Positions 34,627 through 58,738 of a stretch of DNA of 64,000 bases are shown piece after piece; the stretch's first letter is position 1, and the number at the start of each line of letters is the position of its first letter. The position numbers and the translations under genes were made by a program. Source of the stretch: Desulfobacula sp. (GTDB lineage Bacteria; Desulfobacterota; Desulfobacteria; Desulfobacterales; Desulfobacteraceae); contig JAMPXP010000004.1 in assembly GCA_023701135.1 (NCBI GenBank), positions 1 through 64,000 on the forward strand, given 5' to 3'. A model generated the notes under the pieces. That model searched no databases, was not told the origin of the DNA, and was given only the letters and a program-made list of their open reading frames with translations.

Positions 34627-35409
34627 ATGGCCCCTTCACTGATCAACAGCCTGTGTTCAACCCCTGAGGGCCTCATCTCTATTATCGGCGCAGGCGGGAA
34701 AACCAGCCTGATGTTCTGCCTGGCAAAGGAAATTTCAAGGGACGGGGGGACGGTATTGACCACCACCACCACCAAAATTTTCTTTCCGGACAAGGCCCTT
34801 TCTCCTGAAACCGTCACGGCCTCCTCGGCCCAAGACCTCATGGAAAAATCCAGGGACGGCCTGAAACGGCATCCCCATTTTTCAGCCGGACGGCATCATG
34901 ACCTGTCCTCCGGCAAGCTGGAAGGCTTTTCCCCGGATATCATCGACGCCCTGTGGCGGGCCGGACTTTTTGACTGGGTTTTGGTGGAGGCCGACGGGTC
35001 CCGGCAAAAACCCCTGAAGGCCACGGATGTTCACGAACCGGTCATCCCTTCGTCAACCACCTGCCTTGTCCTGGTGGCCGGGCTGGACAGCCTGGGACTT
35101 CCCCTGGATGAGGCCCATGTCCACCGGGCCTCCATTTTTTCAAAAAATACGGGCCTGGGCCTGGGGCAAATCGTGACTGAGGCTGCCATGGCAACCTCCA
35201 TTGCCCTGGAATTGCAAAAGGCCGCCGGGTTCTGCACGGCCCTGGATCAGGTCCTTGTTCTCAACAAAGCCGACACCCCCGGCAGAATCGAATCCGGCCT
35301 TCGTATTGCCGGACTTCTCAAGGCCAATCCCGGCCTGACCCGGGTCCTCATCACCTCCCTCAGGGACGGGCCCTGCATCAAAAAAACAATTCTTCCGAAT
35401 CACCCATAG
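34627..35409 (+). CDS. yqeC: YqeC-type selenium/molybdenum cofactor protein
   Basis: 260 residues with an N-terminal P-loop (ISIIGAGGKTSLMFCLAKE) and a TTTTTKIFFP segment typical of YqeC. The family is associated with selenium-dependent molybdenum hydroxylases; the biochemical step is not settled. First of a three-gene set with xdhC and mocA-like genes (13 and -4 base spacings). No ribosome binding site is obvious close to the ATG. Confidence 0.85.
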   Translation: MAPSLINSLCSTPEGLISIIGAGGKTSLMFCLAKEISRDGGTVLTTTTTKIFFPDKALSPETVTASSAQDLMEKSRDGLKRHPHFSAGRHHDLSSGKLEGFSPDIIDALWRAGLFDWVLVEADGSRQKPLKATDVHEPVIPSSTTCLVLVAGLDSLGLPLDEAHVHRASIFSKNTGLGLGQIVTEAAMATSIALELQKAAGFCTALDQVLVLNKADTPGRIESGLRIAGLLKANPGLTRVLITSLRDGPCIKKTILPNHP

Positions 35410-35422
35410 AAAAGGAATTTCC

Positions 35423-36487
35423 ATGAAAAAAAACATATACCAGACGGCCTGTGAATTGCTCCTGTCGGGGCAGCGGATCATTCTTGCCAAAACCATCCGG
35501 CGTTCCGGGTCAACCCCCAGGGACGTGGGCTCCATGTGCATCATCACGGAAACCGGGGAACTTTTCGGAACCGTTGGCGGCGGCCTCCTGGAATACCAGG
35601 TCCAGACCCGGGCCGGGGAGCTGTTCAAGGAAAAAATGTCCTGCCTCTATCCCTTCCGCCTGACGGGCCGGGGAGCGGCCGAGGCCGGCATGATCTGCGG
35701 CGGCGAGGTGGATCTGTATCTGGACCCGCTTTTCCCGGAAAACCAGGAAACCCTGGCCCTCTTCCAGGCCCTTGCCGCTGAGATGACAGCCAACCGGACG
35801 GTGCGGCTCGTAACCCGCATTCAAGACAAGGCCCCGGCCCTTGAAACCGTGACAAGGATGCTGGTCAGGGAGGATGGAACCGTCATGGGAGGCATGGCCG
35901 GTCTTGCCCCTGAAGATTTACCGGATATGGGCAAGGCCTCTTTTGAGCTGGTTTCCCCTGATCCGGCAAAGCCCGGCTTTTTTGTGGAAAAGATCCGGCT
36001 GAACCCCAGGGTCTTTCTCTTCGGGGCAGGCCATGTCTCGGTTTTTGTGGCGCAACTGGCAAGGCTGGTGGGCTTTGACCTGACCGTCATCGATGACCGG
36101 CCCGAGTTTGCAAGCCCTGAACGGTTCCCCGAGGCCGACGACCTCATTGTCTCGGATTTCAGACAGGTGTTCGACACCCTGGATATTTCCAAAAACGCCT
36201 ATATCCTCATCATCACCCGGGGTCACCTTCACGACAAGACGGTTCTTGAAAAAGCCCTTTCCACCCCTGCCGCCTATATCGGCATGATCGGCAGCGTCCG
36301 GAAAAGGAACCTGATTTATAAGGATCTCATGGATGAAGGGATTCCAAAGGAACGGCTTGAGTCGGTATATTCCCCCGTGGGCCTGGACATCCATGCCGAA
36401 ACCCCGGAGGAGATCGCCGTCTCCATTGTGGCGGAACTGATCAAGGCCAGGAATCCCGGAAAAAAATCCAGGAGCCTCCTTTCGTGA
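35423..36487 (+). CDS. xdhC: XdhC/CoxI-family molybdenum hydroxylase maturation protein
   Basis: 354 residues. N-terminal XdhC_CoxI domain (RRSGSTPRDVGSMCIITETG, LFGTVGGGLLEYQVQ) and a C-terminal Rossmann domain (VFLFGAGHVSVFVAQLARLVG, TVIDDRPEFASPERFP). XdhC binds molybdenum cofactor and supports its sulfuration and insertion into xanthine dehydrogenase-type enzymes. AAGGAA lies upstream of the ATG. No such hydroxylase is within the window. Confidence 0.9.
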   Translation: MKKNIYQTACELLLSGQRIILAKTIRRSGSTPRDVGSMCIITETGELFGTVGGGLLEYQVQTRAGELFKEKMSCLYPFRLTGRGAAEAGMICGGEVDLYLDPLFPENQETLALFQALAAEMTANRTVRLVTRIQDKAPALETVTRMLVREDGTVMGGMAGLAPEDLPDMGKASFELVSPDPAKPGFFVEKIRLNPRVFLFGAGHVSVFVAQLARLVGFDLTVIDDRPEFASPERFPEADDLIVSDFRQVFDTLDISKNAYILIITRGHLHDKTVLEKALSTPAAYIGMIGSVRKRNLIYKDLMDEGIPKERLESVYSPVGLDIHAETPEEIAVSIVAELIKARNPGKKSRSLLS

Positions 36488-37143
36488 TGGCTCCGGGCAT
36501 CACGGTTTCGGACATGGGGGCTCCGGACATGACGGCTCCTACAAAAAGGATTGCCGGCGTCCTCCTTGCCGCGGGCACGGCCAGCCGCCTGGGGAAAACC
36601 AAACAGCTCCTGCCCTTCCGGGGCTCCACCCTCCTGGGCCGGGTCATGGAGAATGCGGCGGCCTCGGACCTGGATGAACTGGTTGTCGTGTTGGGCCATG
36701 ATGCCGACAGGATCATGCAATCCCTTGATTTTTCCGGCATGAAAACCGTCATCAACCCGGATTATTCAAAGGGCCAGGGCACCTCCCTTGCCAAGGGTCT
36801 GGAGGCTGTTTCCCCTTCCTGTGACGGGGTCCTGTTTCTCCTGGCGGACCAGCCCCTGGTCACCCCGGACATGATCAATCGCCTGATCCGGGCCTTTCAG
36901 GATTCCGGGGCCCCCCTTGTCATCCCCTTTTACCGGGGGAGCCGAGGCAACCCGGTCCTAGTTGCCCGGTCCTTGTTTCCAAGACTTTTATCTCTGTCCG
37001 CCGACACCGGGGCCAGGGCCCTCTTTGACGAATACAAGGCCTCCATCCTCCGGGTGGAGGTTGACACCGACGCCGTCCTGGTGGATGTGGACACGGCCCG
37101 GGACTATGAGGCTCTCTTGTCCCGGCCCTTTCCTGAACCCTGA
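36484..37143 (+). CDS. mocA: MocA-like molybdenum cofactor nucleotidyltransferase
   Basis: About 219 residues. Nucleotidyltransferase fold with AGVLLAAGTASRLGKTKQLLP near residue 20 and LLADQPLVTPDMINRLI in the middle, as in MocA, which transfers CMP to molybdopterin. The start is uncertain (GTG 36484, ATG 36487 or ATG 36529), because the first 15 codons consist of a near-repeated GGCTCCGG(G/A)CAT unit and may not be translated. Overlaps the xdhC stop by 4 bases if started at 36484. Confidence 0.85.
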   Translation: MMAPGITVSDMGAPDMTAPTKRIAGVLLAAGTASRLGKTKQLLPFRGSTLLGRVMENAAASDLDELVVVLGHDADRIMQSLDFSGMKTVINPDYSKGQGTSLAKGLEAVSPSCDGVLFLLADQPLVTPDMINRLIRAFQDSGAPLVIPFYRGSRGNPVLVARSLFPRLLSLSADTGARALFDEYKASILRVEVDTDAVLVDVDTARDYEALLSRPFPEP

Positions 37144-42775: not shown

Positions 42776-44155
42776 ATGAGAGCAAAAAAATACGTTTTAA
42801 CCGAACAGGAAATGCCGCGGCAATGGTATAATATCATGGCGGATATGCCGACTCCCATGGAGCCCCCGCTTCACCCCGGAACCGGACAGCCCTGCGGCCC
42901 CCAGGACCTGGCCCCCATCTTTCCCATGAACCTCATCGAACAGGAGGTCAGCACCCAGAGATGGATTGATATCCCAGAGGAAGTCCTGGATAAATATGCC
43001 ATCTGGCGGCCTTCTCCCCTTTATCGGGCCCACAACCTGGAAAAGGCCCTGGACACACCGGCCCGGATCTATTTCAAAAACGAGGGGGTGAGCCCGGCCG
43101 GGTCCCACAAGCCCAATACCGCCATTGCCCAGGCCTATTATAATAAGGTGGCGGGCACCAAACGCATCACCACGGAAACCGGGGCAGGCCAGTGGGGCAG
43201 CGCCCTTTCCATGTGCTGCGCCTTTTTCGGCATTGAATGCAAGGTCTTCATGGTCAAGATTTCCTATAACCAGAAACCCTACCGCCGCCTCATGATGGAA
43301 ACCTGGGGAGCCAACTGTGTGGCCAGCCCCAGCAATGAAACCAGGGCCGGGCGGTCCATCCTGGAAAAAACCCCGGATTCGCCGGGCAGCCTGGGCATTG
43401 CCATCAGTGAAGCCGTGGAGCAGGCCGTGGCCGACGACAATACCAAATATGCCCTGGGCAGCGTGCTGAACCATGTCATGATCCACCAGAGCATCATCGG
43501 CCTGGAGGCTCAAAAACAGATGCAGATGACCGGGGATTACCCAGACGTCATCATCGGCAGCGCCGGCGGGGGCAGCAATTTCGCAGGCCTTTCCATGCCC
43601 TTTGCACGGGACAAGATCAACGGGAAGAACATTGATATCATCGCGGTGGAACCCGCCTCCTGCCCCACCCTGACCCGGGGACCCTTTGCCTATGATTTCG
43701 GGGATACGGTCCAGATGACGCCCCTTTTGCCCATGCACACCCTGGGACATAATTTCATTCCCGAACCCATCCATGCCGGGGGCCTCAGATACCACGGCAT
43801 GGCCCCCATTGTGAGCCAGCTCGTCCTGGACGGCATTGTCCGGGCCGAGGCGGTCCAGCAGATGGAAACCTTTAAGGCCGGCGTCACTTTTGCCCGGTCC
43901 GAAGGGTTCATCAGCGCGCCGGAATGCAACCACGCCGTTGCCATGACCATTAAAGAAGCCCTCAAGGCCAAGGCCGAAGGCAAGGAAAAGGTCATCCTCT
44001 TTAACTGGAGCGGCCACGGCCTGGTGGATCTCGGGGCCTATGAATCCTATATGAGAGGCAAATTATCCGACCATGATCTGCCCCAGTCCGTCATTGATAC
44101 TGCTCTCAAGGATATCGCATCTCTGCCCAAACCCAGGCAGGCTCGAAGAGCATAA
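42776..44155 (+). CDS. trpB: TrpB2-type tryptophan synthase beta chain, copy 1
   Basis: 459 residues, the longer TrpB2 form, PLP-dependent. TrpB joins indole with a beta-replaceable serine derivative to make tryptophan. The PLP lysine is in [19 protein letters not shown], the phosphate loop in [11 protein letters not shown], and ETGAGQWGS and ECNHAVAMT are conserved. AAGGAGG lies 5 bases upstream of the ATG. No trpA or other trp gene is adjacent. About nine in ten residues match copy 2 at 47.6 kb, by eye. A possible promoter (TTGACT, 17 bases, TAAAGA) lies about 120 bases upstream. Confidence 0.9.
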
Positions 44156-44234: not shown

Positions 44235-44531
44235 ATGAATACAAAGAACAATCGCCTGACCGCCGACCCCCCCAAGGAAGACGTTCTGATACGCTGCCCG
44301 AGACTCGGGCACGAGATCTATTTCAATTATTGCCGCGTTGAAAACAACGGCCTTCCCTGTTTTAAAACCCTGGATTGCTGGTTCAATTATTTTGATGTGC
44401 AGGCCCATCTCAAGGAGAAAATGACTGTGGAAGATTTTGAAAAGGTCTTTTTGAATGTCGCAAGACCAAAAATCCATGCCCTCTTCGATCTGATCCAAAA
44501 GACCAAAGACCAGGAAGGAAGCAGAGAGTGA
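44235..44531 (+). CDS. Cys-rich 98-residue hypothetical protein
   Basis: 98 residues. Cysteines cluster in the centre: IRCPRLGHEIYFNYCR followed by GLPCFKTLDCWF, four in all, suggesting a metal site. The C-terminal half is a plain helix. I have seen similar small proteins in other Desulfobacterota but know of no function. AAAGGAGG precedes the ATG. Its stop overlaps the ATPase GTG start (GTGA). Confidence 0.75.
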   Translation: MNTKNNRLTADPPKEDVLIRCPRLGHEIYFNYCRVENNGLPCFKTLDCWFNYFDVQAHLKEKMTVEDFEKVFLNVARPKIHALFDLIQKTKDQEGSRE

Positions 44532-45250
44532 TCTATTTAAACCGGGTAAACATTCTTTCCGAGAAATTCCCTGTCCTGGATCATTATCCCTTTAATATGA
44601 AGATATTCCAGGACACGGGGGTGGTTTCCTTTACAACGCCCATCACGTTTTTCATGGGAGAGAACGGGACCGGAAAATCAACCCTGCTGAAAGCCCTGGC
44701 CCATCGCTGCGGCATCCATATCTGGGAAAGCGAATCCAATTTGAGGTATCAGCCCAATCCCCATGAAAACAATCTTTACAAGGCTGTCTGTGTTGAATGG
44801 GCAGACGGGCCCGTACCCGGTTCCTATTTCGGGTCCCAGATTTTTTCCCATTTTGCAAAAAACCTTGAGGAATGGGCCGTCAATGATGGGGAAATGCTCA
44901 ATTATTTCGGCGGGAAATCCCTCATCACCCAATCCCACGGCCAGTCCCTCATGTCCTATTTTTCATCCCGGTACAGGATCAAAGGGCTGTATTTACTGGA
45001 TGAGCCGGAAACAGCCCTGTCTCCTTCCTCCCTGATTGAACTCTTAAACCTGTTGATCCGCACGGCCCGAGCCGGCCATGCCCAGTTCATCATCGCCACC
45101 CATTCCCCCTTGCTGCTGGCCTGTCCCGGCGCCCTGATCTACAGCTTTGACCGCCCGGTCATCGAACCCGTTCGTTATGAGGACACTGCCTATTACCATC
45201 TCTATAAAAATTTTATGAACCACCCTGAAAAATTCATCAACAATGGATAA
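44528..45250 (+). CDS. ABC-like AAA ATPase
   Basis: 240 residues from GTG. Walker A MGENGTGKSTLLKALAHRCG at about 40-55, Walker B LYLLDEPETALSPSSL, and the following His in ATHSPLLLACPGA. It lacks membrane segments and resembles the predicted soluble ATPases of the COG3910 type, whose role is unknown. Coupled to the gene on each side by overlaps of 4 and 8 bases. Confidence 0.88.
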   Translation: MIYLNRVNILSEKFPVLDHYPFNMKIFQDTGVVSFTTPITFFMGENGTGKSTLLKALAHRCGIHIWESESNLRYQPNPHENNLYKAVCVEWADGPVPGSYFGSQIFSHFAKNLEEWAVNDGEMLNYFGGKSLITQSHGQSLMSYFSSRYRIKGLYLLDEPETALSPSSLIELLNLLIRTARAGHAQFIIATHSPLLLACPGALIYSFDRPVIEPVRYEDTAYYHLYKNFMNHPEKFINNG

Positions 45251-46487
45251 CCCCCAGGACAAGGCTTTAAATACGGTCAGTGTGCCGGAGGAACTCCACC
45301 CGGTCTTTTTAAAGGCCCAGGACTATGTCCGGGAGTATTTTTCCGAAGTTCAGAGTGATCCTGAAAAAGGGGTGATCAAATATTCCGGGGAGCGGTATAT
45401 CCTGGTCCGGGCCTCGGCCATGTCCAAGGAATTGTTTGACATGATGGCCCTCATGTACTCGGACCGGGGCAAACAGGAAGCCAGGGACCTTTCCTTTAAT
45501 TTTCTCTTTGATATTGCCCATTCCATCGGTAAAGCCGATGCCAGAAGCTTTTTCTTAAAAATGGGGGTCAAGGACCCCATTGAAAAACTTTCCGCCGGGC
45601 CCATTCATTTTGCCTATACCGGATGGGCCTCGGTCAAAATTCATCCTTTGTCCAACCCCAGGCCCGATGATCATTATTATCTCATCTATGACCATCCCTA
45701 TTCCTTTGAAGCCCAGGCCTGGATGGAAAAAGGAGAAACCACGGATTTCCCGGTCTGTGTCATGAACGCCGGGTATTCCTCGGGATGGTGCGAGGAAAGC
45801 TTCGGCATCCCCCTGGTAACGGCGGAAGTCGAATGCCGGGCCAAGGGAGACCGCCACTGTAGATTTATCATGGCGCCGCCGTCAAAAATCAAGGACCATA
45901 TCGCCAAATACAGCAAAAGAGCCTATATCAAATACGAACACTATAATAAAATCGACATCCCTGAATTTTTCAAACGCAAGCGCCTGGAAGACGACCTGAG
46001 AAGCCGCAAAGATCAACTGGAGGAACTGGTTCAAAAACGAACGGACAAACTGACCAAGGCCAACCGGGCGCTTGAAGAAGCCAATATTGCCATGAAAGTC
46101 ATGCTCAAACAACTGGAACAGAAAGAACAGGCCGACAAGGAAAATTTTCTGACCAATATCAAGCATTCCATCCTGCCCTACCTGAACGAGCTGTCCGGAA
46201 CGGGTCTGACCCCGGAGCAGAAAATCCTCCTGGCCCAGCTTGAAAAAAATGTCGGCAAGATCACTTCCCCCCTCATCGGCAAACTTTCATCCAAATATCT
46301 GAACCTGACCCCCATGGAGATCAAAGTGGCGGGCCTGGTCAGGGACGGGGTTCCCAATAAGGAAATCGCCGAAACCCTGAATGTCTCGTTGAATACCATC
46401 ACCTCCCACCGCTATAAAATCAGGACCAAGCTGGGGCTGAAAAATAAAGACTCAAACCTGCGCTCCTACCTCCTGTCCCTGGAATAA
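45243..46487 (+). CDS. XylR-N/V4R sensor fused to a LuxR-type DNA-binding domain
   Basis: 414 residues. An XylR_N-like N-terminal domain is followed by a V4R ligand-binding domain (GYSSGWCEESFGI, VECRAKGDRHCRFIMAPP with three conserved Cys). Then come a long coiled coil (~residues 240-310) and a C-terminal LuxR/GerE helix-turn-helix (LTPMEIKVAGLVRDGVPNKEIAETL, SLNTITSHRYKIRTKLGL). V4R sensors of the XylR/DmpR type normally drive a sigma-54 AAA+ domain; here the output is LuxR. It likely responds to a small hydrophobic or aromatic ligand and controls nearby genes. Overlaps the ATPase gene by 8 bases. Confidence 0.88.
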   Translation: MDNPQDKALNTVSVPEELHPVFLKAQDYVREYFSEVQSDPEKGVIKYSGERYILVRASAMSKELFDMMALMYSDRGKQEARDLSFNFLFDIAHSIGKADARSFFLKMGVKDPIEKLSAGPIHFAYTGWASVKIHPLSNPRPDDHYYLIYDHPYSFEAQAWMEKGETTDFPVCVMNAGYSSGWCEESFGIPLVTAEVECRAKGDRHCRFIMAPPSKIKDHIAKYSKRAYIKYEHYNKIDIPEFFKRKRLEDDLRSRKDQLEELVQKRTDKLTKANRALEEANIAMKVMLKQLEQKEQADKENFLTNIKHSILPYLNELSGTGLTPEQKILLAQLEKNVGKITSPLIGKLSSKYLNLTPMEIKVAGLVRDGVPNKEIAETLNVSLNTITSHRYKIRTKLGLKNKDSNLRSYLLSLE

Positions 46488-46611: not shown

Positions 46612-47559
46612 ATGAAAGTGCTTGTCAGCGATCCCCTCTCGGATGTCGGCATTGAAATCTTCAAAAACACCCCCGGCATAGAGGTCGACATCAAAACCGA
46701 TCTCTCTCCAACGGAGCTTGAAGATATCATCGGCGTGTATCACGGTTTATCCATCCGCAGCAAGACCCGGGTGACGGAAACGCTGATCGCCAAGGCAAAA
46801 AACCTGAAAGTGGTGGGCAGGGCAGGCATCGGCCTGGACAATGTGGATATTCCGGCCGCCACCCGGGCCAATATTGCCGTCATGAACACCCCCCACGGCA
46901 ATGCCATCACCACGGCGGAACATGCCATTGCCATGATCATGGCCCTTTCCCGCCATATCCCCAAGGCCACGGCCAGCCTCAAGGACGGCCAGTGGATGAA
47001 AAAAGCCCTCAAGGGTCGGGAAATTTACAACAAGACCCTGGGGCTGGTGGGCATCGGCAATATCGGCAGTATCGTAGCGGACCGGGCCATGGGGCTGCGC
47101 ATGAAGGTCATGGGCTGTGATCCGTATAAAAGCCGTGAGGCCATTCAGAATCTCGGCATCCGTCCGGCAACCTTTGACGAGATCCTGGCCGAGGCGGACT
47201 ATATCTCCATCCATACGCCCAAAACCCCTGAAACCACCAATCTGTTCAACAAGGAGACCCTTGCCCGTATGAAACCGGGCGCCATGCTCATCAATTGCGC
47301 CCGGGGCGGCATCGTCAACGAGGATGATCTCCATGAGGCCCTGAGTTCGGGCCATCTGGGCGGAGCGGCCCTGGATGTTTTTGCCACGGAACCGCCGGGC
47401 AAGATCTGCCTCATGGATCTTGACAATTTTATCTGCACCTGCCATCTTGGTGCCTCCACCCTTGAAGCCCAGGAAAACGTCGCACGGGATGTGGCCCTTC
47501 AGATGGTGGATTATCTGTTAACCGGAAAGGCCCCCAATATCGTCAACCTGAAAAAATGA
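46612..47559 (+). CDS. serA: D-3-phosphoglycerate dehydrogenase (short form)
   Basis: 315 residues with no ACT domain. NAD-binding motif GLVGIGNIGSIVADRA, substrate and catalytic segments NCARGGIVNEDDL and TCHLGASTLEAQENVA. First step of serine synthesis, 3-phosphoglycerate to 3-phosphohydroxypyruvate. Serine feedback through an ACT domain is absent. GGAGACCCATC precedes the ATG. The next gene, trpB2 copy 2, starts 50 bases on, followed by serC. Confidence 0.85.
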   Translation: MKVLVSDPLSDVGIEIFKNTPGIEVDIKTDLSPTELEDIIGVYHGLSIRSKTRVTETLIAKAKNLKVVGRAGIGLDNVDIPAATRANIAVMNTPHGNAITTAEHAIAMIMALSRHIPKATASLKDGQWMKKALKGREIYNKTLGLVGIGNIGSIVADRAMGLRMKVMGCDPYKSREAIQNLGIRPATFDEILAEADYISIHTPKTPETTNLFNKETLARMKPGAMLINCARGGIVNEDDLHEALSSGHLGGAALDVFATEPPGKICLMDLDNFICTCHLGASTLEAQENVARDVALQMVDYLLTGKAPNIVNLKK

Positions 47560-47609
47560 CGTATCCTTTAAATCCGTCATTTTATTTAACCCCAACAAAA
47601 GGAGAAGTT

Positions 47610-48986
47610 ATGAGGACCAAAAAGTATGTGTTAACCGAAAAGGATATGCCAAGACAGTGGTACAACATCATGGCCGACATGCCCAACGGTATGGAACCTC
47701 CCCTGCACCCGGGCACAGGCCAGCCCTGCGGACCCCAGGATCTGGAACCGATTTTCCCCATGAACCTCATCGAACAGGAAGTCAGCACCCAGAGATGGAT
47801 CGACATCCCCGAAGAAGTCCTGGACAAACTGGCCATCTGGCGTCCTTCTCCTCTTTTCAGGGCCTATGGCCTGGAAAAAGCCCTGGGAACCCCGGCCAGA
47901 ATCTATTATAAAAATGAAGGGGTTTCGCCGGCCGGTTCTCATAAGCCCAATACCGCCATTGCCCAAGCCTATTACAACAAGGTAGCCGGCACCAAGCGCA
48001 TCACCACGGAAACCGGCGCAGGCCAGTGGGGTTCCAGCCTTGCCATGTGCTGCGCCTTTTTCGGTATTGAATGCAAGGTGTTCATGGTCAAGATCTCCTA
48101 CAACCAGAAGCCCTATCGCCGTCTCATGATGGAGACCTGGGGCGCCAAATGTACGGCCAGCCCCAGCAATGAAACAGCAGCAGGCCGGTCCATCCTGGAA
48201 AAAACCCCGGATTCTCCGGGCAGCCTGGGCATGGCCATCAGCGAAGCCGTTGAAGTGGCGGTCAGCGATAAAGACACCAAATACGCCCTGGGCTCCGTGC
48301 TCAACCATGTCATGATCCATCAGAGCATCATCGGCCTTGAGGCCCAGAAACAGATGCAGATGGCCGGGGACTACCCCGACGTCATCATCGGCAGCGCCGG
48401 CGGCGGCAGCAATTTCGCCGGCCTTGCCATGCCCTTTGCCCGGGATAAGATAGAAGGCAAACAGATTGATATTATAGCGGTGGAACCCACCTCCTGCCCC
48501 ACCCTGACCCGGGGGCCCTTTGCCTATGATTTCGGCGACACCGTCCAGATGACGCCCCTTCTGCCCATGCATTCCCTGGGCCATAATTTCGTACCGGCCC
48601 CCATCCACGCCGGCGGCCTCCGGTATCACGGCATGGCGCCCATTGTGAGCCAGTTGGTTCTCGACGGCATCATCCGGCCCATGGCCGTGCATCAGATGGA
48701 AACCTTTAACGCCGGCGTCACCTTTGCCCGGTCCGAAGGCTATATCTCGGCCCCGGAATGCAACCATGCCGTGGCTGCCACCATCCGTGAGGCCCTCAAA
48801 GCCAAGGAAGAAGGAAAAGAAAAGGTCATCCTCTTCAACTGGAGCGGACACGGCCTCGTGGACCTGGGCGCCTATGAGAATTTCTTCAGGGGCAAGCTGT
48901 CTGACCATGAGCTGCCCCAGTCGGAGATTGATGCCGCTTTGAAGGATCTTGAGTCCCTGCCCAAGCCCAGACAAGCGAAAAAATAA
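47610..48986 (+). CDS. trpB: TrpB2-type tryptophan synthase beta chain, copy 2
   Basis: 458 residues from the ATG at 47610 (AAAGGAGAAG just upstream); the longer frame begins inside serA and is not credible. Same motifs as copy 1: SHKPNTA with the PLP lysine, [20 protein letters not shown]. It sits between serA and serC. TrpB2 of Sulfolobus is known to use O-phosphoserine, the product of SerA plus SerC, which makes the same substrate likely here. No trpA nearby. Confidence 0.9.
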   Translation: MRTKKYVLTEKDMPRQWYNIMADMPNGMEPPLHPGTGQPCGPQDLEPIFPMNLIEQEVSTQRWIDIPEEVLDKLAIWRPSPLFRAYGLEKALGTPARIYYKNEGVSPAGSHKPNTAIAQAYYNKVAGTKRITTETGAGQWGSSLAMCCAFFGIECKVFMVKISYNQKPYRRLMMETWGAKCTASPSNETAAGRSILEKTPDSPGSLGMAISEAVEVAVSDKDTKYALGSVLNHVMIHQSIIGLEAQKQMQMAGDYPDVIIGSAGGGSNFAGLAMPFARDKIEGKQIDIIAVEPTSCPTLTRGPFAYDFGDTVQMTPLLPMHSLGHNFVPAPIHAGGLRYHGMAPIVSQLVLDGIIRPMAVHQMETFNAGVTFARSEGYISAPECNHAVAATIREALKAKEEGKEKVILFNWSGHGLVDLGAYENFFRGKLSDHELPQSEIDAALKDLESLPKPRQAKK

Positions 48987-49000
48987 ACCCGTGCAAACAG

Positions 49001-49047
49001 CCCGGAATCTGCCGACAACATGCGCGGCCGGTTCCGGGTTTCTTTTT
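49001..49047 (+). terminator. Intrinsic terminator or attenuator between trpB2 copy 2 and serC
   Basis: CCCGGAA (49001-49007) pairs with TTCCGGG (49032-49038), with an inner GCCG/CGGC pair, then TTTCTTTTT. It may end the serA-trpB2 transcript or reduce read-through into serC. Confidence 0.7.
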
Positions 49048-49080
49048 CAACCCTACAATTCAGCAGTAAGGAAAATATCC

Positions 49081-50163
49081 ATGGAAAATAGAATTCATAA
49101 TTTTAATGCCGGACCTGCCGCCCTGCCCTTGCCTGTTCTTGAAGAAATCCGGAACTCGTTCTTAAATTTCAACGGCAGCGGCATGTCCATCACGGAAATC
49201 AGCCACCGGTCCAAAGGGTTTGAAGCGGTTTTAAACGATGCCGTTACGCGGACCAAAAGGCTTTTAAAACTCAACGACCAATACGAGGTCCTCTTTCTCC
49301 AGGGCGGGGCCAGTCTCCAGTTCTGCATGATCCCCTTGAATTTCCTTTCCCAAGGCGGAAGTGCGGATTATGTCAATACCGGCACCTGGGCGGCCAAGGC
49401 CCTGAAAGAAGCCCAGATCCAGAACAAGCCCGTCAAGGTGGCGGCCTCTTCCGAAGACCGGAATTTCTGCTATATCCCGCAGAATATAGCCTTTAACAAG
49501 GAGGCGGTCTATGTGCACCTGACCTCCAACAACACCATCAAAGGCACCCAGTGGGCCTCCCTTCCCGATACGGGCAAGATCCCCATGGTCATTGACATGA
49601 GTTCGGACATCATGTCCCGGCCCGTGGATATGGAGCATATCGGCATGATCTATGCCGGGGCCCAGAAAAATATCGGCCCGGCCGGCGCCTGCATGGTCAT
49701 TATCCGCAAAGACCTCCTGGACCTCTGCCCGGGGAATATCCCCACCATGCTCAACTACAGGACCTTTGCCGAGAAGAATTCCATGTACAATACCCCGCCC
49801 TGTTTCGGTATCTATACCATTTCGCTGGTCCTGAAATGGCTGGAGGAAACCGTTGGCGGCCTTGAAAAAATGGATGCCCTGAACCGGCAGAAGGCGGACC
49901 TGCTCTATTCGTTCATGGACAATTCAGGCTTTTACAAAGCCACGGCGGATAAAGGCTCCCGGTCCCTCATGAATGTGACCTTCCGGCTGCCTTCCGAAGA
50001 CCTTGAAAAAAGGTTTATCGCCAAGGCTGCAGAGAATCACCTGGGCGGTCTGAAAGGACACCGCAGCGTCGGCGGGTGCCGGGCCTCCATTTACAATGCC
50101 ACGGGCCTCAATGCTGTCAGCGATCTTGTCGCCTTTATGAAGGAGTTTCAAAGTCAGGCCTGA
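49081..50163 (+). CDS. serC: Phosphoserine aminotransferase
   Basis: 360 residues from the ATG at 49081 (AAGGAAAATATCC before it). Class V PLP aminotransferase: FNAGPAALPLPVLEEI at the start, the PLP lysine in IYAGAQKNIGPAGACMVIIR, and the C-terminal HRSVGGCRASIYNA. Converts 3-phosphohydroxypyruvate to O-phosphoserine. No serB is seen here, so O-phosphoserine may have another use, as suggested by trpB2 next door. Confidence 0.93.
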   Translation: MENRIHNFNAGPAALPLPVLEEIRNSFLNFNGSGMSITEISHRSKGFEAVLNDAVTRTKRLLKLNDQYEVLFLQGGASLQFCMIPLNFLSQGGSADYVNTGTWAAKALKEAQIQNKPVKVAASSEDRNFCYIPQNIAFNKEAVYVHLTSNNTIKGTQWASLPDTGKIPMVIDMSSDIMSRPVDMEHIGMIYAGAQKNIGPAGACMVIIRKDLLDLCPGNIPTMLNYRTFAEKNSMYNTPPCFGIYTISLVLKWLEETVGGLEKMDALNRQKADLLYSFMDNSGFYKATADKGSRSLMNVTFRLPSEDLEKRFIAKAAENHLGGLKGHRSVGGCRASIYNATGLNAVSDLVAFMKEFQSQA

Positions 50164-50206: not shown

Positions 50207-52174
50207 ATGATGTCCATACATGATATCCAGAAAGACCCAGATATTATCACTGAACTGGGTGGTGTAAATACAGAAGATAAAGCCATGACCGTTTTCCGGC
50301 AATATCTGGATGACGTTCAGATCTCAAGGATTTCCAGAATCAAACACCCTGAGGTCTTAAAAAAAATTGCCAATGCCATCCTGCTTTGCCGTCCCGAAAG
50401 GGTATTCATCCATACCGGATCTCCTGCAGACAGGGACTTTATCCGGTTTTTGGCCCTCACCAAAAAAGAAGAGCAGATCCTTGCCATGGAGGGACATACC
50501 GTCCATTTTGACCTGCCCGGAGAACAGGGCCGCATTGTGGACCGAACCTATTATATCGCCGATCCGTCGGATCTTGTATCCTCCCTGGCCAACCGCATGG
50601 ACAGACCCGGTGCCCTGGAAGAGGTGAAATCCAACATGAAAGACATCATGGCAGGCAAAACCATGGTGGTGGGGTTTTATATCCGGGGTCCGGTGGGATC
50701 ACCCGTATCCAACCCGGCTCTGGAAATCACCAGCTCCGCCTATGTGGCCCACAGTGCAGACCTGCTGTACCGGAACGCCTTTGAAGATTTTGAACGGGAA
50801 ATCGAGCGCCTGGGCCATTTTTTCACCAATATCCACAGCGAAGGCCTGAACCGCCCGGAAGACCTCCCCCAGGCAAGGGTGTTCATGGACCGGAAATATC
50901 AAACCACCTACAGTTTCAAATGCACCTATGCCGGCAACACCCTGCTCCTGAAAAAAGGAAATCACCGGTTTGCCGTGGATAAGGCGGTATATGAAAATCC
51001 GGGAAAGGAGCTGGCCGAGCACATGTTTATCACCGGCATCCATGGACCCGGGGGCCGGGTGACCTGGTTTGTCGGGGCCGCGCCCAGCGGATGCGGGAAA
51101 ACCACAACAGCCATGGCCGGCAATGAATTCATCGGGGATGACCTGGCCCAGATGTGGATCAGTCAGGACGGCAGTATCCGCTCCGTCAATCCCGAATGCG
51201 GCATCTTCGGGATTGTGGAAGATGTGAATATGGAGGGAGATCCCCTTTTGATGAAAATTCTGAGACAGCCCGGTCATGAAGTGATCTGGTCCAATGTCCT
51301 GATCGATGAACACAAGATCCCCCACTGGGTGGGGAACAATGAACCCCATCCGGATAACGGATTTAATTTCCAGGGAGACTGGCACAAGGGGAAAACCGAC
51401 GCCAACGGAAAGCCCGTTCCCCTCTCCCATCCCAATTCCCGCTGCACCTTGAATTCCGCCTGTTTTGAAACCTATTCAAAGGAAGCGGAAAACCCGGAAG
51501 GCGCCCTGACACGGGTGTTTACTTACAGCGGCCGGGACAGCGACACAATGCCCCCGGTCCGGGTGGCCAGAAATTCCGACGAAGGCGTGGTCATCGGCGC
51601 CTGTATCGTATCGGCCGCCACGGCCACGGAGGTGGGGGCAAGCGGGGTGAAACGGGCTCCCTGGGCCAATGCGCCCTTTATCCCCGGCGCCCTGGGCCAT
51701 TATATGGAGGCCCAGTTTCAATTCTTTGGCAGCAACCGCATAAAAAATGAATACCGGCCCGTCATGGCAGGTCTCAATTATTTTCTGACCGACCAGGCAA
51801 GGGGCGGAACCTCATCCGGGCTGATCGGAGAAAAACGGGATGTCAAAGTCTGGCTGGCCTGGCTTGAACGATACTGCCACAATGAAGTCGGCCATATATC
51901 AACCCCCATCGGGAATCTTCCCCTTTATGAGGATTTAACCCGCTTATTCAAAGAGATCATTGATAAAGCCTATTCAAAAGAGGTTTATATCAAACAGTTT
52001 TCCCTGTACATTGATCCCATCATCAAGCGGATTGACATACAGCAGGAGGCCTATTCAAAGGAAAAAGGAATCCCTTCCATCCTGTTCCATATCCTGGACC
52101 GGCAGAAGCATGAACTTCTCTCATTAAAGGGAATTCACGGCAGCATTGTCTCCCCCGGCCAACTGGCCGGCTAA
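50207..52174 (+). CDS. pckG: Phosphoenolpyruvate carboxykinase (GTP)
   Basis: 655 residues. GTP-type PEPCK: FVGAAPSGCGKTTTAMAG is the P-loop (kinase-1a) and contains the hyperreactive Cys, the R-loop and kinase-2 region follows (GDDLAQMWI), and SNVLIDEHKIPHWVGN and NSRCTLNSACFE are typical. Interconverts oxaloacetate and PEP with GTP, anaplerotic or gluconeogenic. GGAGGCC precedes two adjacent ATGs. It lies 43 bases after serC and may be in the same transcript, feeding PEP and 3-phosphoglycerate toward serine. Confidence 0.9.
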   Translation: MMSIHDIQKDPDIITELGGVNTEDKAMTVFRQYLDDVQISRISRIKHPEVLKKIANAILLCRPERVFIHTGSPADRDFIRFLALTKKEEQILAMEGHTVHFDLPGEQGRIVDRTYYIADPSDLVSSLANRMDRPGALEEVKSNMKDIMAGKTMVVGFYIRGPVGSPVSNPALEITSSAYVAHSADLLYRNAFEDFEREIERLGHFFTNIHSEGLNRPEDLPQARVFMDRKYQTTYSFKCTYAGNTLLLKKGNHRFAVDKAVYENPGKELAEHMFITGIHGPGGRVTWFVGAAPSGCGKTTTAMAGNEFIGDDLAQMWISQDGSIRSVNPECGIFGIVEDVNMEGDPLLMKILRQPGHEVIWSNVLIDEHKIPHWVGNNEPHPDNGFNFQGDWHKGKTDANGKPVPLSHPNSRCTLNSACFETYSKEAENPEGALTRVFTYSGRDSDTMPPVRVARNSDEGVVIGACIVSAATATEVGASGVKRAPWANAPFIPGALGHYMEAQFQFFGSNRIKNEYRPVMAGLNYFLTDQARGGTSSGLIGEKRDVKVWLAWLERYCHNEVGHISTPIGNLPLYEDLTRLFKEIIDKAYSKEVYIKQFSLYIDPIIKRIDIQQEAYSKEKGIPSILFHILDRQKHELLSLKGIHGSIVSPGQLAG

Positions 52175-52216: not shown

Positions 52217-53389
52217 TTAGTTTACGCTGTCCAGGGCTTTTTTAAAGCCGTCCAGGGACCCGGCAATGGTTTTATCCGGCACGGCATAGGAAAGCCTGAA
52301 ATGGCCGGGACCACCGAATCCGGTGCCGGGAACGGCCAGGATCTTGTTTTCCTGCAGGATTTTGACAAATTTGAAATCATCCTGGATAGGGCTTTTGGGA
52401 AAGAGATAGAAAGCCCCATCCGGCACGTCAAAGGCATAGCCCGCGGCCCGGAGACCCTCGCAGAACATATCCCGGCGTCTCTTGTAAATCCCGATATCCA
52501 CGGTAACGCCCTGGAGTTCCCCCACCACCTGCTGGAAAAGGGCCGGGGCATTGACATACATCATGGTATTGGTGACTCCGGCGGCGCCGGCGATAACGGC
52601 GGCATCCTCGGCCTTGGGATGAACGGCCAGGTATCCGATTCTTTCCCCGGCCAGGGACAATTCCTTGGAATAGGAGGTCAGCACAATGGTATGGGGATAG
52701 ACATCAAACATGCAGGGCACGTCCACCCCATAGGCGATCTTCCGGTAAGGTTCATCGGAAACAAGATAGATGCGTTTACCGAATTTTTGGCTGGCCCGGT
52801 CCAACAGGGCCCCGAGTTCCATGAGTTCTTTTTTATGATAGACCACGCCCGTTGGGTTATTGGGAGAATTGATGAGCATGACCCGGGTATTGGGGGTGAT
52901 GGCCTTTTCAAGGGCCCCAAGATCCAGGTGAAAATCCGGAAAAGAGCCCACCGGCTTCAGGTTGGCTCCGGCCACAAAGGCATACTGGTGGTATCCGACA
53001 AAATAAGGGGCCGGCACCAGAATGTCCTCCCCAGGATTCATCAAGGCCCGCAGGATATCATTCAGGGCCCCGGCTGCACCGGCCGTCATGACAATGAGGT
53101 CCTGGGTCAGGCCCACCTTGTATTCTTTGTTCAGGTAGTCGGCCACGGCCTTTCTCACATGGGGATACCCGGTATTGGGCATATACCCGTGGGAGGTGGC
53201 CGGGTTGTTGATCAATTTGATGAGGGTGTCGTTTACCACGGCCGGCGGCGGAACATCGGGATTTCCCAGGGAAAAGTCAAATACCTGATCTGCTCCGTAT
53301 TTCTCCTTCATCCGGATTCCCTCTTCAAACATTTTGCGGATCATGGATGCGGATTCCACCATTTTTACCATTTTATCTGCTATGGGCAT
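52217..53389 (-). CDS. Class I/II PLP-dependent aminotransferase
   Basis: 390 residues, AspC/AatA-like fold type I. Motifs: DFSLGNPDVPPPAVV, INSPNNPTGVVYHKKEL, LVSDEPYRKIAYG, and the PLP lysine in LTSYSKELSLAGERIGYLA. The N-terminus (PIADKMVKMVESASMIRKMFEEG) is characteristic of a group in anaerobes usually annotated only as aminotransferase. The amino donor and acceptor are not evident. AAGGAAA precedes the ATG. Single gene. Confidence 0.9.
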   Translation of the reverse strand: MPIADKMVKMVESASMIRKMFEEGIRMKEKYGADQVFDFSLGNPDVPPPAVVNDTLIKLINNPATSHGYMPNTGYPHVRKAVADYLNKEYKVGLTQDLIVMTAGAAGALNDILRALMNPGEDILVPAPYFVGYHQYAFVAGANLKPVGSFPDFHLDLGALEKAITPNTRVMLINSPNNPTGVVYHKKELMELGALLDRASQKFGKRIYLVSDEPYRKIAYGVDVPCMFDVYPHTIVLTSYSKELSLAGERIGYLAVHPKAEDAAVIAGAAGVTNTMMYVNAPALFQQVVGELQGVTVDIGIYKRRRDMFCEGLRAAGYAFDVPDGAFYLFPKSPIQDDFKFVKILQENKILAVPGTGFGGPGHFRLSYAVPDKTIAGSLDGFKKALDSVN

Positions 53390-53441: not shown

Positions 53442-54023
53442 TCACGATGCAAACACTCCTTTAAAAAACCGGTTGCCGCTTTTCATGATCCGGCCTTTCA
53501 TGTCCCGGACATAGGTCGGCCTGATGCCGTCCTTCCACCGGGGATAGCCCCCCTGCCAGACATAACGGATCAGGTCGTGAAAAACCGGCGTTGAGAATTC
53601 ATAGGGCCCCATCCAGACCCTTCCATCCCGGTTAAACACAAGGGACATGGCTGCCGCCCTTGAAAACCGCTCTATCTCTTTTTCGACAATCTTCTGGGTC
53701 CGGAATCCCTCCGGATTCTGTTTAAACCCTTTTGGATCACGGGGAAAGGGAAAAAGTTCATAGGTCCTCCCGATGAAGCCCGTGAACCGGATGCCGTGGA
53801 TGGCCCCCATGAGGTCCCCGATATCCTCGGGCCTATCAATCACACGGACCTCCTGTTCAAAGGGGACGGATTCCAGGTCTTTTTTCTCAGAAAGTTCTCC
53901 AATCCACCCGCAGAACCGGTCGGCAAAAAAGAAATGATTTTCCAGGAGCAGCATATCGGATTCAACGTTAAAAAATCCAAAAGCGATATTTCCGTGATTT
54001 TCAGACCTGAAAGACAAGGGCAT
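53442..54023 (-). CDS. Hypothetical protein preceding no known domain
   Basis: 193 residues, soluble, with aromatic-rich patches (LLLENHFFFADRFCGWIGE, TYELFPFPRDPKG, IRYVWQGGYPRWKDG). I recognise no family. GGAGAAACCC precedes the ATG, 15 bases after the stop of the upstream hybrid kinase, so it is likely co-transcribed with it and could be part of the signalling pathway or its target. Confidence 0.65.
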   Translation of the reverse strand: MPLSFRSENHGNIAFGFFNVESDMLLLENHFFFADRFCGWIGELSEKKDLESVPFEQEVRVIDRPEDIGDLMGAIHGIRFTGFIGRTYELFPFPRDPKGFKQNPEGFRTQKIVEKEIERFSRAAAMSLVFNRDGRVWMGPYEFSTPVFHDLIRYVWQGGYPRWKDGIRPTYVRDMKGRIMKSGNRFFKGVFAS

Positions 54024-56489: not shown

Positions 56490-58364
56490 TTATAAATTCA
56501 ATACATCTGCGGCATACTCCAGATTCAAGGATTTTAATGTTGCCCGTGTTGGTGATCCCGTCTTCACATCCCAGCCTCTTGCGATATAGTATTCATCCAG
56601 CATGAGTTTCAATTCTTCCCTGCTGATAAAATGGCCTTTGGAAACCCCTCCGGGTATGGGCTCGGTCATCAGCCGTTCAGGGAGCGTATCGTCGGCGCGG
56701 GTGAATCCCTCTCTGACATTAAACGCCCTGGCCAGGTTATTAATCCTTTCACCGACGGAAAGAATTTCATCAGGGGTATAGGAGATCCCGGTAATCGCCT
56801 CCATGAGATCCGCCGTATTCCGGGTGGCTATCCCCACCACTGCCATATCCAGAAGAAATCCGCACATGGTTGGGGCATCCGTGGTTGCGGTGCGGATATC
56901 CTGGTTCCATTTGGTCAGCGCCCCCTTGCCCTCGGCCGTAAACCGGTCCACTTCTTTTGGAACCGGGATTCCAAATATTTCCTGAAACGCATATCCGCGG
57001 CAATGATCCGCGCCGGTAAAGGACGTTGCAAAATTAAGCCCATGGGATTTGGCCCCCCTGACATCATAGGCCGGAAGCTCCAGCCCCTTGACATGCATGG
57101 CAAATTTTTCCGATCCTTTTCCGATTTTTTCAGCGGCAATTTTAGCGCCGTCGGCAAGAAGGCCGCCAAGCCCTTCACGGTAGGACATCTGCCTGAGGAC
57201 GGCCATCATGGCCGTATCATTGCCAAACCTCAATTCCAGGCCGCCGGTGTCTTCCTTTGTCAGAATTCCCTTTTCATAAAGTTCCATTGCAAAGGCAATG
57301 GATACGCCGGAAGAGATCGTATCAAATCCCATTTCATCGGCCAGACGGTCTGCTGCAATGATGGCGTCAATATTTTCAACGCCGGTGGCACCGCCGAAAG
57401 AATACATGGTCTCAAACTCCGGCCCTTCGGTCATGATCCCGGCATATTCGCCGGTCTTGGCCAGTTTCACCTGGCTGCAGCCGACAGGGCAACCGTAACA
57501 ATGCTCTTTTCCGGCATTCCGGGTGGCCTGGACTGCCGTACCAATTTGTTCGATGGGGTCATAGGCCCCTGTTCCCAGAAAATTTTTTGTGGGGAAAATA
57601 CCCATATGGCACAAATGGTCCACCACCATGGGAGTGCCAAGATTTGCAAATGCAGGATAGAGAACAGGGCTGTCCTTCATCGCTTTTGTGAACACCTTCC
57701 TGGCTTCTTTGAGTTTGTCTTTGTCATTGACCTTAACTTTCTCACCGCCTCTGACGGCAATGGCTTTAAGATTTTTTGAACCCATTACGGCGCCGAGCCC
57801 TTTTCTCCCCACCGCCCGCCATTCATTGATAATGGATGCAATTTTGATCTGGTTTTCTCCGGCCGGCCCGATGCACGCAATTCTGACATTCTGATCATTG
57901 AGTTCATTTTTGATGATTTGCTGGGTATCCGTTGTTTTCATTCCCCAGAGGGTTTTTGCACTGCGAAATTTTACCTCACCATCTTTTATCCAGACATAAA
58001 CCGGTTCCTTTGACCGCCCTTCGACAATGAGTGCATCATAGCCCGCAAATTTCAATTCAACGGGGAAATGCCCTCCGGACAGGCCCATGCCCACAGCGCC
58101 GGTCAAAGGGGATTTGGCTGTGACGGCCATCCTGCTGGCACAGGGGACATTGGTCCCGGATAAGGGGCCCGGGGCAAAAATGAGCTTGTTATCAGGACCC
58201 AAGGCATCTGAATTTGCCGGGACTTCATCAAACAAATACTTAATGCCGAAACCGGCTCCCCCGATAAAATCCTTTGCCGTCTGAAAGGGAAGCGCCTCTT
58301 CTTTTACACTGTGATCCGTTAAGTTGATTCTTAAAATTTTCCCTGTATAACCGCCTTTGTACAT
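56490..58364 (-). CDS. aor: Tungsten-containing aldehyde:ferredoxin oxidoreductase (AOR)
   Basis: 624 residues, AOR family. Iron-sulfur ligands C289, C292 and C296 in EHCYGCPVGC, and a fourth Cys in APTMCGFLLD. Pterin-binding regions GPLSGTNVPCASRMAVT, GMGLSGGHFP and VMGSKNLKAIAV are present. Oxidises aldehydes to acids, or reduces acids, with ferredoxin in the cytoplasm. AAGGAG is 7 bases before the ATG. A MoaD/ThiS-like gene lies upstream on the same strand, as is common for AORs, but a terminator-like hairpin separates the two. Confidence 0.93.
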   Translation of the reverse strand: MYKGGYTGKILRINLTDHSVKEEALPFQTAKDFIGGAGFGIKYLFDEVPANSDALGPDNKLIFAPGPLSGTNVPCASRMAVTAKSPLTGAVGMGLSGGHFPVELKFAGYDALIVEGRSKEPVYVWIKDGEVKFRSAKTLWGMKTTDTQQIIKNELNDQNVRIACIGPAGENQIKIASIINEWRAVGRKGLGAVMGSKNLKAIAVRGGEKVKVNDKDKLKEARKVFTKAMKDSPVLYPAFANLGTPMVVDHLCHMGIFPTKNFLGTGAYDPIEQIGTAVQATRNAGKEHCYGCPVGCSQVKLAKTGEYAGIMTEGPEFETMYSFGGATGVENIDAIIAADRLADEMGFDTISSGVSIAFAMELYEKGILTKEDTGGLELRFGNDTAMMAVLRQMSYREGLGGLLADGAKIAAEKIGKGSEKFAMHVKGLELPAYDVRGAKSHGLNFATSFTGADHCRGYAFQEIFGIPVPKEVDRFTAEGKGALTKWNQDIRTATTDAPTMCGFLLDMAVVGIATRNTADLMEAITGISYTPDEILSVGERINNLARAFNVREGFTRADDTLPERLMTEPIPGGVSKGHFISREELKLMLDEYYIARGWDVKTGSPTRATLKSLNLEYAADVLNL

Positions 58365-58447: not shown

Positions 58448-58738
58448 TCAACCGCCGCCGGCAGGTAAAAGTATCGTTATCTCATCATTATCCTGAAGGA
58501 CTGTTTTCTCTTTATTTAAAAATCTGATATTTCTGCCGTTGACCATGAACATGATATGGGAGGCCAAGGTTTTTCCATCCGTTTCAAACAGATAAGGCTT
58601 GAGTTCGTCTCCATGGGTCTGTGTTAATTGGTTCAGCAGATCTCCGAATGTACTGGTTTGGGGAAGAGATACCTGAAACTTCCAGTTACCCAATATTTCA
58701 CTCAGCGCCATACTCGTTCTGACATTAATGGTTATCAA
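58448..58738 (-). CDS. MoaD/ThiS-family sulfur carrier partnered with AOR
   Basis: 96 residues starting at TTG 58738, supported by AAGGAGG 9 bases upstream. Ubiquitin-like fold; the required Gly-Gly C-terminus is present (ITILLPAGGG). Such proteins supply sulfur for the pterin dithiolene and commonly sit beside AOR genes, suggesting a dedicated tungstopterin pathway. No activating MoeB/ThiF-type gene is next to it. Confidence 0.88.
   Translation of the reverse strand: MITINVRTSMALSEILGNWKFQVSLPQTSTFGDLLNQLTQTHGDELKPYLFETDGKTLASHIMFMVNGRNIRFLNKEKTVLQDNDEITILLPAGGG

Follow-up and report, generated by a model that had tools for sequence, protein, structure and literature searches.

A serA-trpB2-serC cluster of Desulfobacula and its possible role in feeding indole into anaerobic indoleacetate catabolism

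Introduction

The closest described counterparts of the gene cluster considered here are the tryptophan synthase β chains of the TrpB2 type and the iaa operons for anaerobic breakdown of indoleacetate. The cluster surrounds a serA-trpB2-serC block in a 64,000-nucleotide stretch of Desulfobacula sp., a sulfate-reducing bacterium (assembly GCA_023701135.1, contig JAMPXP010000004.1, positions 1 to 64,000), referred to below as the window. The use of O-phosphoserine (OPS) by TrpB2 enzymes has already been published (Busch 2014, cited in PMC11917138), so that OPS chemistry alone is not new. In Aromatoleum aromaticum, the iaa operon encodes a CoA ligase (IaaB), a CoA-transferase (IaaL), a mutase (IaaGH) and a dehydrogenase (IaaF), and the pathway has indoleacetyl-CoA as its earliest CoA intermediate (PMC8360864). 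Predictions of such operons extend to Desulfatiglans and further sulfate reducers, and to Ferroglobus; those of the sulfate reducers have an added electron transfer flavoprotein (ETF), and IaaF is listed for NaphS2; the IaaF subclass is marked by a GGG motif that replaces YEG (PMC8360864). The mechanism of anaerobic degradation of indole itself was called a black box in a 2018 review (PMC6221969).

Within the order to which the window genome belongs, seven families show linkage of serA to trpB2; in the genomes compared, this linkage is confined to those with an iaa-type hydantoinase. The cluster is interpreted here, with a probability of roughly 0.6, as a module for substrate loading, through which free indole would enter the anaerobic catabolism of indoleacetate.

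The serA-trpB2-serC cluster

The initial annotation had reported the gene order serA-trpB2-serC, with a TrpB2-type β chain between the two other genes and neither serB nor trpA nearby, and had read it as an OPS-dependent tryptophan synthase. The open reading frames (ORFs) lie where it had placed them and their identities are backed by profile scores, so the observation itself is confirmed. It had overlooked a second TrpB2 gene (42776-44155), a V4R-LuxR regulator, the two small genes between them and a phosphoenolpyruvate (PEP) carboxykinase. In the lists that follow, G stands for a genome (G000 being that of the window), L for a fetched locus, C for a contig and f for a family. The core genes are:

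42776..44155, + strand: trpB2_A, TrpB2-type pyridoxal phosphate enzyme of 459 aa (TIGR01415, 649 bits), with active-site Lys, Glu and Arg338
46612..47559, + strand: serA, 3-phosphoglycerate dehydrogenase of 315 aa, without intervening and ACT domains
47610..48986, + strand: trpB2_B, TrpB2-type pyridoxal phosphate enzyme of 458 aa (PRK12391 and TIGR01415 profiles)
49081..50163, + strand: serC, phosphoserine aminotransferase of 360 aa, with its ATG at 49081 (TIGR01364)
50207..52174, + strand: GTP-type PEP carboxykinase (PEPCK), directly 3' of serC, proposed gluconeogenic source of PEP and 3-phosphoglycerate (3PG)
52217..53389, - strand: class I aminotransferase (PRK06836), convergent to PEPCK, with homologues forming a cluster of 17 loci including the window (cluster 3); candidate Trp:2-oxoglutarate aminotransferase

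According to these coordinates, the intergenic gaps are 50 bp (serA-trpB2_B), 94 bp (trpB2_B-serC) and 43 bp (serC-PEPCK).

The assignment to TrpB2 is clear. The product of trpB2_B reaches 734 bits with PRK12391 and 639 bits with TIGR01415, both far above cut-off, and only 145 bits with the TrpB1 profile TIGR00263 (cut-off 392). Both copies fall into TIGR01415 and PRK12391, and both score far under TrpB1 for TIGR00263. They are 89% identical as proteins and 83% as DNA, and among named records a Desulfobacula metagenome-assembled genome (MAG; L097) comes nearest, with 98% identity to trpB2_A. No trpA or other trp gene was found among the scanned window genes, so the surroundings of trpB2 are not those of a canonical trp operon; an ordinary TrpA/TrpB1 synthase is encoded elsewhere in the genome, where trpA adjoins trpB1 on contig C38.

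Lys112, Glu134, Trp140 and Arg338 are present in all 69 TrpB2 proteins of the tree set and in both Sulfolobus solfataricus chains aligned (4qys and 6hul). None of the 69 departs from the active-site Lys or from the Glu within ETGAGQ, and the GGLRYHG motif carries Arg where TrpB1 has Asp (69/69); in the alignment, the genome's own TrpB1 shows His at the Trp140 position and Asp at that of Arg338. This Asp, which we take to be Asp305 in Salmonella numbering, touches the serine hydroxyl in TrpB1. Its exchange for Arg is compatible with a phosphate leaving group, and phosphoserine is the likely donor for the window TrpB2, judging from these residues.

The serA product has the catalytic and NAD-binding domains of 3-phosphoglycerate dehydrogenase. 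It scores 411.8 bits with TIGR01327, below the cut-off of 454; the match covers positions 1-312 of the 525 of the profile and leaves the C-terminal part unmatched; neither PGDH_inter nor ACT appeared in the domain scan. Dehydrogenases of this kind without regulatory domains are known, and the missing domains thus concern regulation, not activity: the enzyme should evade feedback exerted through them. SerC reaches 481 bits with TIGR01364 (cut-off 443.6). The window SerA/SerC pair is an extra copy, because a housekeeping pair, consisting of a full-length SerA (526 aa ORF) adjoining SerC, lies on contig C10; genomes G219 and G277 likewise hold two SerA-SerC pairs each. The window SerA is 58% identical to the housekeeping SerA, and 68% (L032), 66% (L085), 61% (L088) and 58% (L083) identical to trpB2-linked SerA proteins of other families; the values for L032 and L085 suggest that serA travels with trpB2. 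Window SerC is 71% identical to its housekeeping counterpart and 66% to that of L032.

The absence of serB from the neighbourhood was borne out, the contig having no SerB match at E <= 0.001. Two SerB proteins with ACT-type N-termini score above cut-off on contigs C11 and C15, so that an explanation by loss of serB is rejected. PEPCK, too, has a further copy in the genome, near serB on C15 (L015), with 78% identity to that of the window. A PEPCK gene 3' of serC is also found in L034, and not in L019, L042 or L093.

An iaa-type operon on the same contig

Hydantoinase and molybdenum hydroxylase belong to the Aromatoleum indoleacetate pathway. About 125 kb from the trpB2 cluster, on the same contig (C8, ~172-195 kb), the two subunits of indolepyruvate:ferredoxin oxidoreductase (IOR) head an operon of the order IORA - IORB - CoA-transferase III - GntR - MeaB - B12-binding protein - mutase - hydantoinase A - hydantoinase B - PaaK-like ligase - three-subunit molybdenum hydroxylase - TRAP transporter - second molybdenum hydroxylase. 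A CoA-transferase, a B12 mutase pair and a CoA ligase are therefore all encoded here, assigned at the level of families, and much the same gene set recurs in other families. The second three-subunit molybdenum hydroxylase, 3' of the TRAP transporter (~191-195 kb of C8 in G000; L193, 9387-13202), is an observation in its own right, since only one such enzyme is obviously needed. The word hydantoinase is absent from PMC8360864.

The acyl-CoA dehydrogenases (ACADs) encoded in the iaa clusters of G111, G128, G088, G058, G008 and G160, together with the NaphS2 orthologue, all carry GGG. The alignment also included seven further ACADs: YEG is present in five, GEG in one (from NaphS2) and GGG in one, a G058 paralogue with 34% identity. 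A motif search over six loci of the window genome and one G219 locus gave no match with a pattern that demanded an upstream RD and would miss variants.

Linkage and co-occurrence across the order

The sample comprised 241 genomes of the order. A genome was counted as iaa+ when one of its sequences matched the hydantoinase A of the window genome at 61% or more; partial matches (G007, G121, G086, G128) count, as does a fragment of 79 residues in G230. Linkage, defined as a distance of at most 8 kb from trpB2, was counted in 71 of the 241 genomes, the window genome included: 32 of the 35 iaa+ genomes among the matches listed, and 39 iaa- genomes, whose loci were chosen by TrpB2 score and not randomly. 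The iaa+ genomes left out have either no TrpB2 of this kind (G102, G230) or a partial one (G085). For 11 of the iaa+ loci, iaa status was already known at the time of retrieval; the remaining 21 include the window. Seventeen same-family loci (L033-L049), whose iaa status was not determined, were excluded from the count; L034, L042 and L048 of these have serA.

With these definitions, serA lies near trpB2 in 14/32 iaa+ and in none of the 39 iaa- genomes (p 2e-6). The same contrast holds for IORA (11/32 vs 0/39), a 3-hydroxyacyl-CoA dehydrogenase/enoyl-CoA hydratase fusion (HACD-ECH; 13/32 vs 0/39), serC (5/32 vs 0/39) and other iaa genes (7/32 vs 0/39); any of serA, IORA, HACD-ECH or iaa genes is found in 21/32 vs 0/39. 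When only loci selected before iaa was considered are counted, without the window, serA is linked in 7/20 vs 0/39 (p 2e-4) and IORA in 6/20 vs 0/39. Moreover, a hydantoinase occurs, among the matches listed, in 19 of the 21 genomes with a window-type TrpB2 (at least 74% identity) and in 16 of the 220 others (p 1e-16). Within the genus (eight genomes), G000, G152, G183, G207, G219 and G237 have both the window-type TrpB2 and the hydantoinase, the single-contig G190 has neither, and G230 has the hydantoinase fragment and no such TrpB2, again among the matches listed.

On a TrpB2 tree (built without L050/L051, L075, L092 and L214), the iaa label needs five changes, compared with a mean of 23 after shuffling. 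It is found in 20 of the 24 rows of the window clades, in a clade of eight rows from f8, f28 and f30, in the distant pair L083/L088 and in two single rows. The iaa-linked TrpB2 proteins thus fall into at least two separate parts of the tree. A count of three was lowered, because L083/L088, a pair on long branches, could group with the window side under some rootings.

These figures bear on the purpose of the cluster. The OPS chemistry proposed in the initial annotation is supported, as far as protein sequences and gene order can tell, by the extra SerA/SerC pair, the SerA without regulatory domains, the recurrent linkage and Arg338. The biosynthetic purpose that it implied is probably wrong or incomplete, so that its interpretation holds in part: plain tryptophan synthesis by a TrpB2 set between SerA and SerC was lowered because a full TrpA/TrpB1 is present and serA linkage occurs in 0/39 iaa-less genomes. 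A related explanation is anabolic indole salvage, in which TrpB2 and locally made OPS would form protein tryptophan from external or TrpA-leaked indole, while IOR and the CoA ligase would make aryl amino acids from arylacetates. TrpB2 has indeed been termed an indole-scavenging protein, and Geobacter has its trpB2 within what is predicted to be the trp operon and, listed under tryptophan, a unit of iorAB and paaK (PMC2700814). TrpB2 is above cut-off in at least 191 of the 241 genomes, compared with at least 35 for the iaa-type hydantoinase, and consequently TrpB2 as such has another common role. However, two copies of TrpB2 together with a surplus SerA/SerC pair that lacks regulatory domains and a surplus PEPCK are a large outlay for a minor amino acid that TrpB1/TrpA can supply; the serA linkage is missing from all iaa-less genomes, and the neighbours in relatives (IaaF-type ACAD, HACD-ECH, ETF) are catabolic. 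Salvage is for these reasons considered an unlikely main purpose, though one with some substance.

Neighbourhoods of trpB2 in relatives

The remaining genes of the cluster and its flanks, several of which recur beside trpB2 in other genomes, are:

34627..37143, + strand: yqeC, xdhC and mocA (molybdenum-hydroxylase maturation), which adjoin trpB2_A in several relatives; here five ORFs separate them from it
44235..44531, + strand: orf98, small Cys-rich ORF, function not assigned, nearly always a neighbour of trpB2
44528..45250, + strand: AAA_21-type ATPase, overlapping orf98 by 4 bp, with homologues in 22 clustered loci including the window (cluster 2)
45243..46487, + strand: regulator with a V4R domain and a LuxR-type HTH, XylR_N score slightly below its cut-off; proposed inducer sensor
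53442..54023, - strand: orf193, function not assigned, no Pfam match, 12 loci (cluster 5), with a homologue 3' of serC in L032

The full block is thus trpB2_A - orf98 - AAA ATPase - V4R/LuxR - serA - trpB2_B - serC - PEPCK, followed by the convergent aminotransferase. Further downstream, an aldehyde:ferredoxin oxidoreductase-like protein (56490-58364), a few kb from the cluster, could use indoleacetaldehyde, and the small ORF beside its gene (58448-58738) has, judged by eye, a MoaD-type look.

In relatives, Pfam and NCBIfam searches on examples identified serA, IOR, HACD-ECH, ACAD, ETF, CoA-transferase and CoA-ligase genes as neighbours of trpB2. Locus L032 has the order V4R-LuxR - serA - trpB2 - orf98 - iorA - iorB - serC, and L094, from a Desulfobacteraceae MAG, the same order up to iorB; in both, the homologue of the V4R-LuxR regulator lies 5' of serA. 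In L208, L209, L210 and L083, a divergent HACD-ECH gene precedes trpB2 - orf98 - serA - iorA - iorB, with a small opposite-strand ORF separating serA from iorA in L083. In f57 and f58, an ACAD-ETF-CoA-transferase group and HACD-ECH stand beside trpB2. In all, trpB2-linked serA occurs in families f1, f8, f28, f29, f30, f35 and f58. That the gene order is due to chance has little to recommend it: the serA-trpB2-serC block is indeed present in only part of the genomes of the window's family, but the serA-trpB2 linkage spans seven families, varied gene orders and at least two TrpB2 lineages, and chance is scarcely credible.

Some of these neighbourhoods show features of their own. In L071 and L085 (f35), genes for a SIS/CBS protein and a phosphofructokinase, perhaps another supply of 3PG, come after serA-trpB2. 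A divergent SerC-like protein (44%) adjoins trpB2 in two f28 genomes (L205, 10665; L211, 1). In families such as f53 (loci among L073-L091), a trpB2 of the ~66% type comes after a conserved run of ORFs of ~150, 370, 220, 404 and 157 aa.

The product of orf98 has no match in Pfam or NCBIfam and one match within its own genome. It was dropped as specific evidence for the linkage, since 67 of the 71 genomes have it at 8 kb or less from trpB2, regardless of iaa genes (31 iaa+, 36 iaa-). In Desulfobacterota and a small number of further phyla (L118, for instance, bears the label Aminicenantes), TrpB2 may have in it a partner that has so far gone unnoticed.

The families related to the V4R-LuxR regulator bear names that refer to phenol and other aromatics. 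This would also suit a role of TrpB2 in an unrelated pathway, either joining OPS to a non-indole nucleophile or acting as a deaminase of OPS or serine, and TrpB2 was at one time suggested to be a serine deaminase, as discussed in PMC1854888. The deaminase activity is nevertheless reported there to be poor, the Lys and the ETGAGQ Glu are invariant, and the company of trpB2 consists of genes of the indolepyruvate and indoleacetate type, all of which makes such a role very improbable.

Proposed mechanism

The substrate-loading module could operate as follows. PEPCK would convert oxaloacetate into PEP, and thence 3PG would be formed. The unregulated SerA would oxidize 3PG to phosphohydroxypyruvate, which SerC would turn into OPS with glutamate as the amino donor. 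The two TrpB2 copies would then condense OPS with indole, giving tryptophan and phosphate. An aminotransferase, perhaps that encoded at 52217-53389, would transfer the amino group of tryptophan to 2-oxoglutarate, and the glutamate formed together with indolepyruvate would return to SerC, so that amino groups would shuttle between both transaminases. IOR would convert indolepyruvate, CoA and ferredoxin into indoleacetyl-CoA and CO2, and the iaa-type operon, with its CoA-transferase, B12 mutase, hydantoinase and molybdenum hydroxylase, would degrade indoleacetyl-CoA. The V4R-LuxR protein may sense the inducer, a guess from its family and position. A flux through TrpB2 on a catabolic scale would account for the two trpB2 genes, the unregulated SerA and PEPCK.

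The carbon invested as 3PG would come back in the form of acetyl-CoA and CO2, which pyruvate synthase could use to rebuild it; the C3 unit would in this case be a carrier, and the cost would be that of forming PEP. It is conceivable, although we hold this wider proposal somewhat short of an even chance, that strict anaerobes degrade indole by means of such a recyclable carrier (acetyl-CoA and CO2 to pyruvate, PEP, 3PG and OPS; with indole to tryptophan, indolepyruvate and indoleacetyl-CoA; and through the iaa pathway back to acetyl-CoA and CO2), with a biosynthetic enzyme as the first catabolic enzyme and phosphoserine as co-substrate.

Several observations weigh against the module. As regards the window genome, IOR is not adjacent to trpB2, and a close IaaF was not found in it (best match 32%) or in G219 (best 36%); the two ACADs inspected in the window genome, namely the best IaaF match and the one nearest to the operon seen (~25 kb away), have YEG and not the GGG of IaaF. 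As regards the sample, in 11 of the 32 iaa+ genomes the DNA up to 8 kb from trpB2 contains none of serA, IORA, HACD-ECH or iaa genes (two of these genomes have a SerC-like neighbour), G003 and G031 have the window-type TrpB2 and no hydantoinase among the matches listed, and the p-values are optimistic because the genomes are related. The trpB2-linked serA is the sole strong 3-phosphoglycerate dehydrogenase match in G160, G058, G080, G035, G250 and G121 (in G058 with a second of equal score), so that a dedicated copy is not general. In the single contig of G058, the short SerA matches of equal score lie at C1:1659424 and C1:3904022, and may reflect a recent duplication or an assembly artefact.

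Named TrpB2 loci, many of which come from other phyla, for the most part lack surroundings of the serA/IOR type. Among 80 such loci (many short; seven gave no labels), a close serA was found only in L093 and L094 and a close IOR only in L094 and L095; L109 and L155 have IOR-like proteins at 29-42%, and L132 a dehydrogenase at 33%. The fetched trpB2 locus of NaphS2 has orf98 and neither serA nor IOR, despite the iaa-type genes of this organism. Furthermore, Desulfobacterium indolicum has been reported to form oxindole, isatin and anthranilate, which is a different route (PMC6221969).

Finally, tryptophanase homologues, all below the curated cut-off, were found in 5 of the 12 genomes tested. This also fits an explanation in which the grouping serves the catabolism of tryptophan and indoleacetate, TrpB2 and SerA/SerC merely recapture indole formed as a by-product, and indole is no growth substrate; iaa operons with IOR would degrade tryptophan without any TrpB2. 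No tryptophanase match was found, however, in the window genome or in G219, and net synthesis of OPS by the cluster would imply net consumption of indole. Recapture is accordingly judged rather improbable, and the module remains the preferred reading.

If the module is real, a set of genes, an entry enzyme and intermediates that can be tested for are now at hand for anaerobic indole degradation, and OPS use by bacterial TrpB2 has a physiological reason. SerA, SerC and tryptophan synthase would be biosynthetic enzymes that catabolism has taken over, and this in more than a single lineage of TrpB2, and the serA-trpB2-ior linkage would serve as a marker that predicts indole use in sediment sulfate reducers.

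Comparison with known systems

The PDB chains 4qys, 6hte and 6hul are those of the OPS-using TrpB2 of S. solfataricus. The window TrpB2 belongs to the same family (phmmer E 1e-122 to 1e-115 against the three chains) and shares the four active-site residues with 4qys and 6hul. It differs from the archaeal enzyme in being bacterial, present in two copies, linked to serA and serC and flanked by a small Cys-rich ORF, and relatives add catabolic genes of the indoleacetate type. In Geobacter, another anaerobic bacterium with TrpB2 and IOR genes, the place of trpB2 is inside the predicted trp operon, and a link to serA/serC or iaa is not mentioned in the available portion of PMC2700814.

With the iaa operons, the operon on C8 has in common the CoA-transferase, the B12-dependent mutase pair and the CoA ligase, to which several relatives add a GGG-type ACAD with ETF. 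The published route starts from indoleacetate by means of the CoA ligase IaaB (PMC8360864), whereas here IOR heads the operon; and relatives of the window genome, which itself has no close IaaF detected, add TrpB2 and SerA to the published gene set. A route from indole through tryptophan to indoleacetyl-CoA was not proposed in the titles and abstract openings of the literature on TrpB2 and phosphoserine, anaerobic indole degradation and the iaa operon, subscription literature being mostly outside this search. The new point is thus the recurrent link of SerA, TrpB2 and IOR to anaerobic degradation of the indoleacetate type, and not the use of OPS by TrpB2; it suggests that these microbes convert indole to tryptophan first, for anaerobic breakdown.

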